From: Halorubrum xinjiangense
GTDB lineage: Archaea > Halobacteriota > Halobacteria > Halobacteriales > Haloferacaceae
Length of the DNA stretch: 64,000 bases
Direction of reading: 5' to 3'
NCBI RefSeq assembly: GCF_900102375.1
Contig: NZ_FNBO01000005.1
Location: 1 to 64,000 of the forward strand
This document shows positions 26,327 to 31,084 of this stretch, in pieces; position 1 is the stretch's first letter; each line of letters begins with the position of its first letter. The notes below the pieces were generated by a model. That model saw only the letters and a list, made by a program, of their open reading frames with translations, had not been told where the DNA came from and did not search any database. Both the position numbers and the translations under genes were made by a program.

Positions 26327-28114
26327 CTACTCTCCGGGACGCCGTCCGGTCATCCACTCGCTTGCCTGCGGTTCGGCCGGGTCGGTGACGACCTCGACGA
26401 GCGCCGGGCCCTCCCGGGCGCGGGCGCGCTCAACGGCGTCGCCGACGGCGTCGCGCTCGCGGACGCGCTCAGCGGGCAGGCCCATCCCGGACGCGACCGC
26501 GACGAGGTCGAGCCCGGCCTCGGCCCAGCCGTAGGCGCCCTCGGGGAACGCGTAGGATCGCGACGCCTCCTCGCTGATGATCGCGTAGTCGTCGTTGTTA
26601 AGCGCGACAACGGTGACGTCGACTCCCTCGCTCGCCAGCGTGTGGAGCTCGTGGACGCACATCATGAGCCCGCCGTCGCCGGTGAGGGCGACGACGTCGC
26701 GGTCCGGGTTCGCCAGCTTGGCGCCGATCGCTGAGGGGAGACCGGTGCCCATCGTCGCCCACGAGCCCGGATTGACGTACGACCGCGGGCCCGCCGCGGG
26801 GAACGAGACGAGGGTCCACAGCCTGAATCCGCCCGCGTCGGCGGTGACAATCGCGTCCTCCGGCGCCGCGTCGCGCACCGCAGAGAGGACCTCGACCGAG
26901 CGGAGAGGGCGGTTGTCGCCGCCGCCGTCGTGGCCCTCGTCGCCGCCGCCGTCGCGCCCCTCGTCGCCGCTCGACCCCGACAGCGCCGCGAACCGCTTGC
27001 GGTCGGCGGCGCGGACCGATTCGGCGCGCTCGGCGCCAGCGCGGTCGGGAGCCGCCGCCCGTTCGTCGTCGGCCGAAGCGGCGTCGAGCCGCTCGTCAAG
27101 CGCGCGCAGGAAGCGGTCGGCGTCGGCGACGACGCCGAGATCGGTCTCGTAGCCGAACCCCACGTCGTCGCCGTCCAGCGTGACGTGGACCAGTGTTTCG
27201 GGCATGGAGACGGACCACGAGGCGGTCGCGACCGCGTCGAGGTCGGATCCGACGACGAGGCCGACGTCGGCGTCCGCGAGGAGGTCACGGAGCTCAGTGC
27301 TGGCGCCGCCACAGAGGACCCCTGCGGATAGCGGGTGTGTCTCCGGAAGCGTCCCCTTCCCCTTGTACGTCGTCACGACCGGCGCGTCCAGCCGTTCGGC
27401 GACCGACCGGAGGGCACCGCTCGCGCCCGAGCGCCTGACGCCGCCGCCGGCGAGGACGACGGGCGAGGCCGCGTCGGCGAGCAGGTCCGCGGCCTCCGCG
27501 ACAGCCTCTGCGGGCGGCGCCGGCGGCGGCGACGGGTCTCGGTCGCCGACCGCCGGCTGCGGGGTCCGGCCCGCGAGGACGTCCTTCGGGATACCGACGC
27601 GAACCGGTCCCTGTGGGTGTTCGCGGGCGGTCCGGATCGCCTCGAGGACGGCCGGGACCGCGCCCGCGGGCGAGTCGACAAGGACGTTCTCCTTGACCAC
27701 GGTGTCGTACGTCTCCGGCGGCGTCTCGTGGATGCCGTCGCCGCCGCGGACCGACCGCTCCGTCTCGACAGCGAGGTGGAGCAGGGGGACGCAGTCGTTC
27801 AGGGCGTTTTTTAACCCGTTCATCGCGTTCGTATCGCCCGGGCCGGGGACGACGCAGGTGGCGGCCATCGCTCCCGGGTCGCTCGTCTCGGCGTACCCCC
27901 ACGCCTGGTGCGGGACGGCGGTCTCGTGGCGGGCGACGACGAACCGCGCGTCGCGGTCGGCGAGCGCTCGGTTCAGCGGGAGGGTCTGCTTCCCGGGGAT
28001 CCCGAAGACGGTGTCGACGCCGCGGTCGAGCATAGCGTCGACGACCGCCTCGGCGACTGTCGGGCACAGGTCGGCGTCCCCGTCCGCGGCGTGCGAGGGC
28101 TCGTCAGCGTCCAT
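26327..28114 (-). CDS. Thiamine-diphosphate enzyme, acetolactate synthase-like
   Basis: From ATG 28114 the protein has 595 residues and three domains. The N-terminal PYR domain has the catalytic Glu in ARHETAVPHQAWGYAE; a central nucleotide-binding-like domain follows; the C-terminal PP domain has the ThDP/Mg motif GDGGLMMCVHELHTLASEG ending in NND. It belongs to the decarboxylase/acetolactate-synthase superfamily; substrate unknown (2-oxo acid). A low-complexity G/D insert (about residue 395-412) sits between domains. An upstream ATG (28249) would add 45 residues unlike the family, so I prefer 28114. No small regulatory subunit is nearby. Confidence 0.88.
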   Translation of the reverse strand: MDADEPSHAADGDADLCPTVAEAVVDAMLDRGVDTVFGIPGKQTLPLNRALADRDARFVVARHETAVPHQAWGYAETSDPGAMAATCVVPGPGDTNAMNGLKNALNDCVPLLHLAVETERSVRGGDGIHETPPETYDTVVKENVLVDSPAGAVPAVLEAIRTAREHPQGPVRVGIPKDVLAGRTPQPAVGDRDPSPPPAPPAEAVAEAADLLADAASPVVLAGGGVRRSGASGALRSVAERLDAPVVTTYKGKGTLPETHPLSAGVLCGGASTELRDLLADADVGLVVGSDLDAVATASWSVSMPETLVHVTLDGDDVGFGYETDLGVVADADRFLRALDERLDAASADDERAAAPDRAGAERAESVRAADRKRFAALSGSSGDEGRDGGGDEGHDGGGDNRPLRSVEVLSAVRDAAPEDAIVTADAGGFRLWTLVSFPAAGPRSYVNPGSWATMGTGLPSAIGAKLANPDRDVVALTGDGGLMMCVHELHTLASEGVDVTVVALNNDDYAIISEEASRSYAFPEGAYGWAEAGLDLVAVASGMGLPAERVRERDAVGDAVERARAREGPALVEVVTDPAEPQASEWMTGRRPGE

Positions 28115-28258: not shown

Positions 28259-28543
28259 ATGCGCTTACCAGAAACTCGTGACCTGTTCGCGAGGAAGCTA
28301 CAGTTTCCGGCGCCCCGAGAGGAGGTGCTGGAGACGGTCGGCGACACGGAGCTGTCGCCGCCGGACGGAGAGCCGACGACGATCAGGGCGGTCATCGACC
28401 GCTCAGACGTCGAGTCGTTCGACTCGGCGGACGACCTCTACGACACGCTGATGATGCTCGTCGGCGCCCAGTTCATCGGCCGCCGGTACTACGACGACCG
28501 CGGCGGAATGCCGGGGGACGAGGAGAACGAGGTGAGTTTCTGA
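28259..28543 (+). CDS. DUF5789-family protein
   Basis: The 94-residue protein MRLPETRDLFARKLQFPAPR continues with a DUF5789-like domain of small haloarchaeal proteins (TIRAVIDRSDVESFDSADDL, then DTLMMLVGAQFIGRRYYDDR). Function unknown. Its stop TGA shares one base with the ATG of the adenylate-kinase-like gene, so the two are translationally coupled. An in-frame ATG nine bases earlier (28250) would add MVC and is less likely given the TATA position. Confidence 0.8.
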   Translation: MRLPETRDLFARKLQFPAPREEVLETVGDTELSPPDGEPTTIRAVIDRSDVESFDSADDLYDTLMMLVGAQFIGRRYYDDRGGMPGDEENEVSF

Positions 28544-29097
28544 TGTCCGTCACGCTCGTGTCGGGGGTCAACGGCGTCGGCCTCTCAAGCGTCTGTCAGG
28601 CGGTCCGACGCGGACTCGGAGACGGGTACAAGCTGATCAACTTCGGGGACGTGATGCTCGAACAGGCGGCGGCGATGGGTATCACGACCGAGCGGGCCAA
28701 ACTCGGCACGCTCTCGCAAACCGAGACGCGTCGCCTCCAGCGTCGCGCGGGCGAGTTCGTCGCCGAGGAGGCGAAGACGACGAACGTGATCCTCTCGACG
28801 CACCTCGCGGTCGAAACGCGGACCGGCTACGTTCAGGGGCTCCCGGTCGAAGTGCTTCAAGACGTCTCCCCGGACGCGTTCGTCCTCGTGGAGGCGGAGC
28901 CGGCGACGATCCTCGAACGGAGGCTGGAGAGCGACCGCGACCTCGGCGGGGTCACGGAACGCCAGATCGACTTCGAGCAGGACCTCAACCGGTCCGCGGC
29001 GCTCCAGTACGCGAGAGACCAGAACGCGCCCGTCCGGTTCGTCCAGAATGAGGGGGAGATCGAAGAGGCGGCCGAGCGCCTGGCAGACTCGCTGTAA
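28543..29097 (+). CDS. Archaeal-type adenylate-kinase-like protein with altered P-loop
   Basis: The 184-residue protein has the length and order of archaeal adenylate kinase (AdkA): N-terminal strand and P-loop, INFGDVMLEQA, STHLAVETRTGYVQGLP, and a C-terminal ATILERRLESDRDLGG lid-like region. The P-loop reads GVNGVGLSS (residues 8-16), where the family has a GVPGVGKTT-type loop. The invariant lysine is Leu. It may thus bind nucleotide poorly or act as a non-catalytic paralogue. It is coupled to the DUF5789 gene; the downstream gene is convergent. Confidence 0.82.
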   Translation: MSVTLVSGVNGVGLSSVCQAVRRGLGDGYKLINFGDVMLEQAAAMGITTERAKLGTLSQTETRRLQRRAGEFVAEEAKTTNVILSTHLAVETRTGYVQGLPVEVLQDVSPDAFVLVEAEPATILERRLESDRDLGGVTERQIDFEQDLNRSAALQYARDQNAPVRFVQNEGEIEEAAERLADSL

Positions 29098-29170: not shown

Positions 29171-31084
29171 TCACTCCGCGACGTTCGTCTCGCGGACGCG
29201 AACGCCCTTCCGACCGAGGTGCCGCATCTGCCGCTGGGCGAACTCCTCCTCGCTCGACCCGCGCGTCGCGAGGACGTAGACGAGCGCGGAGCCGGTCGGT
29301 CGCATCGTGCGGCCGGCGCGCTGTGACCCCTGTCGCCGGGAGCCGCCGAGGCCGCTCGCGACGACCGCGAGCTCCGCGTTCGGGAGGTCGATCCCCTCGT
29401 CGCCGACCCGGGAGACGACGAGGACGTCGAGGTCGTCGGCGTCGGTAGCCTCGGTGTCGCTTTTCTCCGCCCGGAACCGCCGGAACAGCTCCGCGCGCTC
29501 GTGGTGGGGGGTCTCGCCGCTGATGAAGGGGGCGCCAAGCGCGTCCGCGATCGCCTCGCCATGGTCGAGGTACTCGACGAAGACGAGCGCCTTCTTCTCG
29601 CGGTGCGCGGCGAGCAGGTAGCGGACCTCTTCGACCTTCGCGGGGTTCTCGGCCGCGAGCCGCCTGCGATCCCGGCCGTCCGCGGCGGCGTACTCGTTGC
29701 GGGCCGTCTCGTCGCGCCACGGGACGTACCGGATCTCGACCTCGGGCTCCTGGACGAAGCCGGCCTCGAAAAGAGAGTCCCAGTCGGCGCCGATCGGCTG
29801 GCCGATCAGGGTGTAGATCTCCTCCTCGCTGCCGGTCTCGCTGACGGGAGTCGCCGAGAGCCCGAGGCGGTGTTTGCTCTGGAGTTCGGCGGTCCGGGAG
29901 TAGACGGGGGCGCTGACGTGGTGTGCCTCGTCGAAGCAGATCAGCCCCCACTCGCGGGAGTCGAAGAGGCTCCGGTGGCGGTCCATCCCGGCGATCTGGT
30001 AGGTCGCGATCGTGACCGGGCGGATGTCCTTGGTGCCCCCGTGGTAGAGCCCAATGTCCGCGGGGTCTATCGTCGAGTGGTCGAGCAGCTCCTCGCGCCA
30101 CTGGTCTGCGAGTTCGCGCGAAGGGACCAGGATGAGCGTCTCGCCGCCCACGGCCGCGATCGTCGCGATCGCGGCGACGGTCTTGCCGGACCCGGGCGGG
30201 CCGACGTACACGCCGGACTTGCGGTCGAGGAACTCATCGACCCACGTCGCTTGGTAGTCGCGGAGGTCGGTCGTGAGCTCGATATCCACGGGATCGCCCG
30301 TCTCCAGGTCGCGGTCGTCCTCGACGGGGTAGCCAGCGTCGTAGAGCGCGCGCTTCACGGCGGCGACGGCGTCCTCGTTGACCCACGCTTCGGTGTCCGA
30401 GATGGGCGCGCGGAGGTGGTCGTCGGCGAGGTGCTGGTCGGCGACGTTCCCCATCAGGGACTCCGAGGCGGCTTCGAGGACGACGTAGTCGTCGGCGTGA
30501 GTGTACAAGCGAAAGCGGTGCGCGCGGCGCCACTGATCGCGGACCCAGTCTTCGAGGTGGTCGTAACGCCGCGGGAGGACGGAGCGGAGCGCCCCCACGA
30601 GCGCCTCGGCGTCGTCGAACGGCGCGGCCCACACGTCCTCCTGCCGGATCCGATAGAGGTACCCGCGGGTTCCCGGCTCGGTGCCAGTGGTGTCGACGAG
30701 GTTCGCGAACTGCGAGAGCCGCGCCCGGGTGTACTGCGTGGGCCGGTCGACGACGATCTCGCGGCGCTTCGGGAAGACCACGACGCGCTCGCGGCTCGCT
30801 AACGCGCCCCAGTCGCGCGGGTAGAAGACGACGGGGTCGGCCTCGACGTCGAGCCGGTCCACGTCGCCGCGGTCGACGAGCGCGGCGAGCGCGTCGCGGG
30901 CCGCGGCCTGCGTCGTCCCGAGTCGGCGGGCGACCTCGCTCGCGGTCGCGACCGGGCGCTCCTCGGCTTCGAGCGCCTCGTGGAAGCGATCTAAGGAGAG
31001 GTCGTCCTCGGGGGTGTCGGAGTCGGTAGGCGCGTCGTCGGTGGGAGCGTCGCCGGCGTCGTCGCCGGTGTCGTCGGTCATCAC
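29171..31084 (-). CDS. XPB/SSL2-like superfamily 2 helicase with N-terminal winged helix
   Basis: The 637-residue protein starts with an acidic tail (about 1-28) and a wHTH-like region (about 30-80: TASEVARRLGTTQAAARDAL). The SF2 core has motif I VGPPGSGKT, motif II CFDEAHH, motif III LSATP and motif VI QRAGRTMRP. It resembles the XPB/Rad25 group, which opens DNA in repair or transcription. The N-terminal wHTH sets it apart from the shorter paralogue at 49306. MTDD at the second Met (31081) is equally possible as a start. The ATG lies about 85 bp from the outermost tail unit of repeat copy C. Confidence 0.9.
   Translation of the reverse strand: MMTDDTGDDAGDAPTDDAPTDSDTPEDDLSLDRFHEALEAEERPVATASEVARRLGTTQAAARDALAALVDRGDVDRLDVEADPVVFYPRDWGALASRERVVVFPKRREIVVDRPTQYTRARLSQFANLVDTTGTEPGTRGYLYRIRQEDVWAAPFDDAEALVGALRSVLPRRYDHLEDWVRDQWRRAHRFRLYTHADDYVVLEAASESLMGNVADQHLADDHLRAPISDTEAWVNEDAVAAVKRALYDAGYPVEDDRDLETGDPVDIELTTDLRDYQATWVDEFLDRKSGVYVGPPGSGKTVAAIATIAAVGGETLILVPSRELADQWREELLDHSTIDPADIGLYHGGTKDIRPVTIATYQIAGMDRHRSLFDSREWGLICFDEAHHVSAPVYSRTAELQSKHRLGLSATPVSETGSEEEIYTLIGQPIGADWDSLFEAGFVQEPEVEIRYVPWRDETARNEYAAADGRDRRRLAAENPAKVEEVRYLLAAHREKKALVFVEYLDHGEAIADALGAPFISGETPHHERAELFRRFRAEKSDTEATDADDLDVLVVSRVGDEGIDLPNAELAVVASGLGGSRRQGSQRAGRTMRPTGSALVYVLATRGSSEEEFAQRQMRHLGRKGVRVRETNVAE

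Follow-up and report, generated by a model that had tools for sequence, protein, structure and literature searches.

A haloarchaeal clade of AdkA-derived proteins, paired with DUF5789, that may be pseudo-adenylate kinases

We analysed a window of 64,000 nucleotides from Halorubrum xinjiangense (contig NZ_FNBO01000005.1, positions 1 to 64,000), in which a gene for an AdkA-like protein directly follows a DUF5789 gene on the same strand (Table 1). The stop codon of the DUF5789 gene and the start codon of the AdkA-like gene overlap by one nucleotide, as TGATG. The 184-residue AdkA-like protein begins MSVTLVSGVNGVGLSSVCQ, and the open reading frame bears out an earlier note on this DNA, which had remarked that the P-loop lacks its Walker A lysine; a leucine occupies the site. 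The window genome has one AdkA-like gene. A second, canonical adk, whose existence the earlier note had raised, was located as a single bacterial-type copy (C2:225941-226471) with the loop GAPGAGKGT and a lid, and a separate, Fap7-like protein carries the loop GTPGTGKST.

Table 1. Genes and residues at the AdkA-like locus of the window.
Feature	Position	Strand	Remarks
Thiamine pyrophosphate enzyme gene	26327-28114	-	Domains TPP_enzyme N, M and C; transcribed away from the DUF5789 gene
DUF5789 gene, 94 aa	28259..28543	+	PF19102, 50.5 bits; cut-off 21.7
AdkA-derived protein, halo-type clade	28543..29097	+	184 aa; profile name 'adenylate kinase'; probable pseudo-adenylate kinase
P-loop GVNGVGLSS	28564..28590	+	Residues 8-16; glycines retained, Leu14 at the Lys site
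Leu14 codon CTC	28582-28584	+	Walker A Lys position
Gly55	28705..28707	+	Equivalent of AdkA Arg60 (M. igneus numbering)
Ser85	28795..28797	+	Replaces Walker B Asp90; STH versus DTH
Arg132	28936-28938	+	M. igneus LID Arg138, retained
Leu134	28942..28944	+	Replaces LID Arg140 (M. igneus numbering)
XPB/ERCC3-like helicase gene	29171-31084	-	Downstream, opposite strand; adjacent to the gene pair in Halorubrum-type loci alone

The protein matches the NCBIfam profile PRK04040, 'adenylate kinase' (165.8 bits; cut-off 155), and Pfam AAA_17, and is homologous over its full length to archaeal AdkA (PRK04040/NF003122; for example Methanotorris igneus 6PJW, M. voltae 1KHT, Sulfolobus 1NKS). Its AlphaFold2 model (pLDDT 90.4, pTM 0.86) has the AdkA fold, with a TM-score of 0.92/0.89 against M. 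igneus AdkA 6PJW, and the closest solved structures are those of methanococcal AdkA. The likeness to bacterial-type Adk (PF00406 with ADK_lid) is one of name only: the latter has GAPGAGKGT and a full lid, whereas PF00406 is not among the Pfam matches of the AdkA-like protein at E up to 1. The earlier note had also suggested an RNA-related role by resemblance to Fap7. Fap7/AK6 proteins likewise have a P-loop nucleoside monophosphate kinase fold, and Foldseek with the AlphaFold2 model retrieved Fap7 (Fap7-Rps14) at an E-value near 1e-6; however, archaeal AdkA chains were retrieved at 9e-19 to 9e-14, the match to AAA_18 (Fap7/AK6) reaches 22.2 bits, below the cut-off of 29.4, and this genome encodes its Fap7-like protein, whose P-loop is intact, in a different gene. 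It is thus highly improbable that the AdkA-like protein is a Fap7-like factor acting on RNA or in ribosome assembly. Haloferax volcanii gave no match when used as a control in the AdkA profile scans; PMC8305020 assigns its adk1 to HVO_2496 and, with an unclear status and a relationship to Pyrococcus Fap7, its adk2 to HVO_1296.

Relatives were drawn from 195 genomes of the order (19 with a match), from genome contigs (40 loci), from 292 genomes of the class, where matches of at least 25 bits were examined together with locus L087, and from 392 genomes of the phylum (149 with a match at 1e-20), to which 20 picked regions were added. The final alignment has 115 rows, leaving out L062 (truncated), L087 (a false hit with no AdkA alignment) and identical sequences. 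In a maximum-likelihood tree of these rows, 55 haloarchaeal rows including the window form one clade with support of 100/100, which we call halo-type; its stem is 0.79 changes per column long, and some of its rows, such as L014, lie on long branches. The remaining 60 rows comprise the 30 loci with the highest scores among the 149 phylum genomes with a match, 20 chosen from as many additional genera of that set, 4 intact haloarchaeal AdkA rows, 3 distant loci, and 3 chains from the PDB; M. voltae 1KHT is absent from the tree.

Lysine occupies the Walker A site in none of the 55 halo-type rows, which have Leu (41), Ala (5), Ser (4), Thr (2), Val (2) or Met (1); the Met, in L077, carries a reservation, as the start of that gene was placed too late. 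Leu14 is therefore not a strain mutation or sequencing error, which the earlier note would have concluded from orthologues with lysine. The 60 other AdkA rows have Lys (39), Ser (12), Ala (5) or Gly (4), shares that do not represent a random sample because of how the rows were selected. Because 21 of these rows lack lysine, it is no defining or diagnostic feature of the AdkA family, and the earlier contrast with a GVPGVGKTT-type loop, correct as to the absent lysine, was too simple. Absence of lysine is already visible in existing AdkA structures, and so known in substance: the site is Gly in M. igneus, M. maripaludis and M. thermolithotrophicus, and Ser in M. voltae 1KHT. Methanococcal AdkA enzymes are active despite this absence.

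PF00406 Adk (E up to 1e-20) was found in 0/13 genomes with intact AdkA (completeness 88-100%) and in 7/7 genomes with neither AdkA type. Eight of those 13 genomes carry an AdkA without lysine, and none of the eight shows PF00406 Adk; their AdkA is thus very probably functional as an adenylate kinase, and the Walker A lysine would seem dispensable in AdkA; Fap7-type enzymes may contribute adenylate kinase activity in these genomes as well. Both these eight genomes and the methanococcal Gly- and Ser-bearing proteins, solved as adenylate kinases, rule out lysine absence as proof of inactivity. Twelve intact AdkA rows with Ser at the site, spread over five families within the phylum of the window genome, group together at 93/91 (L089, L091, L109, L110, L120, L123, L127, L130 and L133-L136); four of these genomes were tested and show no PF00406 Adk, so that the Ser-type protein is apparently their adenylate kinase.

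The clade also differs from other AdkA at further sites. The earlier note held the remaining AdkA landmarks to be retained; this is wrong, as window Gly55, Ser85 and Leu134 stand in for Arg60, the Walker B Asp and LID Arg140. In the numbering of M. igneus, used here for all residues not assigned to the window, Arg60 is present in 60/60 other AdkA rows versus 0/55 halo-type rows, Asp90 in 60/60 versus 5/55, and Arg140 in 60/60 versus 1/55, the single Arg lying in the scrambled LID of L035 and the 54 rows without it including one gap row. Asp135 and His151 are mostly replaced in halo-type rows as well. Arg60, Asp90 and Arg140 are all kept in each of the 21 rows outside the clade that lack lysine. 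The five halo-type rows with Asp90 (L011, L012, L013, L015 and L054) have lost Lys, Arg60 and Arg140 already, a sign that the Walker B Asp may have been the last to go.

Much of the nucleotide site persists. Retained in all 55 halo-type rows, gap rows aside, are Gly10, Gly13, Gly15, Ser/Thr17, Gly40, Met43, Arg56, Gln71, Arg131 and Arg132; Arg56, Arg131 and Arg132 are also present in 60/60 other AdkA rows, position 17 is Ser or Thr throughout, and LID Arg138 is retained in 50/55 halo-type rows. Passages of PMC10883716 treat M. igneus AdkA as a working kinase, name R138 and R140 as critical arginines around the phosphates of Ap5A, and assign to R131 a cation-pi contact with the adenine of ATP. 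The overall pattern is one in which several residues of the phosphoryl-transfer site are gone and the nucleotide cradle is kept. The clade has also gained near-invariant residues, including window Arg22, Asp36, Arg67, Arg68, Glu71 and Phe144.

Two readings would keep the protein an enzyme. It might be an ordinary, perhaps slow, second adenylate kinase whose substitutions are tolerated like the methanococcal loss of lysine, as its PRK04040 score above the cut-off would suggest, along with a fold shared with methanococcal AdkA proteins, in which Gly or Ser takes the place of the Lys. We find this distinctly unlikely: rows outside the clade that lack lysine keep the three residues that halo-type rows do not, and PF00406 Adk (E up to 1e-20) is present in 14/16 halo-type genomes, the exceptions being G121 (79% complete) and G025, so that nothing forces the AdkA-like protein to stay active. 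Alternatively, it could still be a phosphotransferase, for another substrate or through a rearranged active site in which window Arg22, Arg67 and Arg68 replace the lost charges. These three arginines occur in 96-98% of halo-type rows versus under half of other AdkA rows, the P-loop glycines and window Arg126-Arg127 and Arg132 are retained, and other AdkA proteins manage without lysine; but the near-complete loss of the Walker B Asp, Arg60 and Arg140 counts against catalysis, and the varied residues at the Arg140 and Lys sites look like released constraint, not a new fixed mechanism. We regard such an activity, too, as unlikely.

The DUF5789 gene is a constant neighbour. It lies directly upstream of the halo-type gene in 55/55 distinct loci, with a 1-nt overlap in 46 and spacings of -14 to +38 in the others (the +38, in L077, being subject to the reservation about its start), and all 27 halo-type genomes of the class sample have an adjacent DUF5789 match. 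Other archaeal AdkA differs in this respect: no DUF5789 was found within the 3.5-kb loci of the four intact Ala-type haloarchaeal AdkA genes. The earlier note had called the two genes coupled; translational coupling as such would be a plausible consequence of the overlap. Among 18 loci with 5-kb flanks and mechanically called ORFs, no other neighbour is common to more than four; a larger operon was ruled out, as the widest other cluster occurs in four loci (L040, L043, L049 and L050) at scattered positions, and the next ten neighbour clusters listed are common to three Halorubrum loci only.

Distances across 14 genomes are correlated between AdkA and DUF5789 (r 0.70; partial 0.64 given Adk), with r 0.53 for AdkA and Adk and r 0.37 for DUF5789 and Adk. 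An AlphaFold model of a DUF5789-AdkA read-through as a single chain has well-folded domains joined by a disordered linker, with a pTM of 0.65, and so lends no support to a contact between the two. Eight genomes without a strong AdkA match hold close DUF5789 paralogues (L148-L155), most with a YDDRG motif; no AdkA was seen among the ORFs downstream of them, so that DUF5789 does not need AdkA. Searches at E up to 10 linked DUF5789 to no other Pfam family, and the name was not found in the openly licensed literature searched.

The earlier note judged the gene not obviously decaying, and its conservation among relatives agrees: dN/dS among 14 Halorubrum-type genes (91 pairs) has a median of 0.20 and a maximum of 0.41, indicating purifying selection, and 22 columns are invariant among 38 rows. 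These results, together with the DUF5789 neighbour in 55/55 loci, leave very little room for a decaying remnant that was superseded by bacterial-type Adk, a reading that would account for the patchy distribution (27/292 class genomes, counted from strong matches) and for a halo-type remnant broken by an in-frame stop in one Halorubrum genome (L161, G253). Because it is patchy and broken in G253, yet under low dN/dS, the gene is dispensable but maintained where present. Genome G025 carries both an intact Ala-type AdkA and a halo-type gene with DUF5789 (L014, L020), on contigs similar in composition, and PF00406 Adk was not found in it at E up to 1e-20; this combination suggests that the halo-type gene is a paralogue rather than a leftover. 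If this metagenome-assembled genome is clean, the paralogue is older than the arrival of bacterial Adk. A viral module was also considered and rejected, as viral contigs yielded no relative; one plasmid match was found, to pHrrPV6.

We suggest, with moderate confidence, that the protein is an AdkA-derived haloarchaeal pseudo-adenylate kinase without useful catalysis, and that it probably binds nucleotides as the partner of a translationally coupled DUF5789 protein. With its fold, P-loop glycine cradle and Ser/Thr, pocket residues Gly40, Met43 and Arg56, and Arg131-Arg132 retained, it would probably still bind adenine nucleotides; with Arg60, the Walker A Lys, the Walker B Asp and one arginine of the LID pair gone, any interconversion of ATP, ADP and AMP would probably be too slow to be of use. 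Overlapping genes would couple its translation to that of DUF5789, of which it would most likely be a nucleotide-responsive partner, as energy-state sensor or assembly subunit. Given the residues lost, the pocket retained and the constancy of DUF5789, the protein could serve as a sensor and not as an enzyme. A fuller and less likely version is an energy-state sensor module in which a catalytically dead AdkA paralogue reads AMP, ADP or ATP and, through opening and closing movements, relays the state to a DUF5789 effector translated along with it, having been disarmed stepwise, with Lys, Arg60 and LID Arg140 lost first and the Walker B Asp last.

Several observations weigh against a pseudo-adenylate kinase. 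The AdkA family tolerates active-site change, since an AdkA without lysine can be a working enzyme; window Arg22, Arg67 and Arg68 could compensate for the lost residues; and Arg138 in most halo-type rows and the Walker B Asp in a few are still in place. As an analogy, human AK4 is reportedly enzymatically inactive and binds the ADP/ATP translocase (Liu et al. 2009, cited in PMC10056885), which sets a precedent for a catalytically silent adenylate kinase that works by way of another protein. AK4 belongs to an adenylate kinase family different from AdkA, its partner is another one, and the contact of the AdkA-like protein with DUF5789 is putative; the suggested likeness is in acting through a protein partner and not through catalysis. 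The repurposed role proposed in the earlier note thus gains support from the three further residue losses, the retained pocket, purifying selection and the DUF5789 pairing, and not from the absent lysine or the Fap7 idea.

A disarmed haloarchaeal AdkA clade paired with DUF5789 was not found in our literature searches, which covered openly licensed papers. If the interpretation is right, DUF5789 gains a constant candidate partner, and the clade, having lost Arg60, Asp90 and Arg140 where all other rows keep them, becomes a natural experiment on the residues that adenylate kinase chemistry needs. It would also correct automatic annotation. A DUF5789 and AdkA-like pair lies near HicA/HicB genes on the 300-kb Halorubrum plasmid pHrrPV6 (L163), where the two genes are recorded as 'hypothetical protein' and 'adenylate kinase'.
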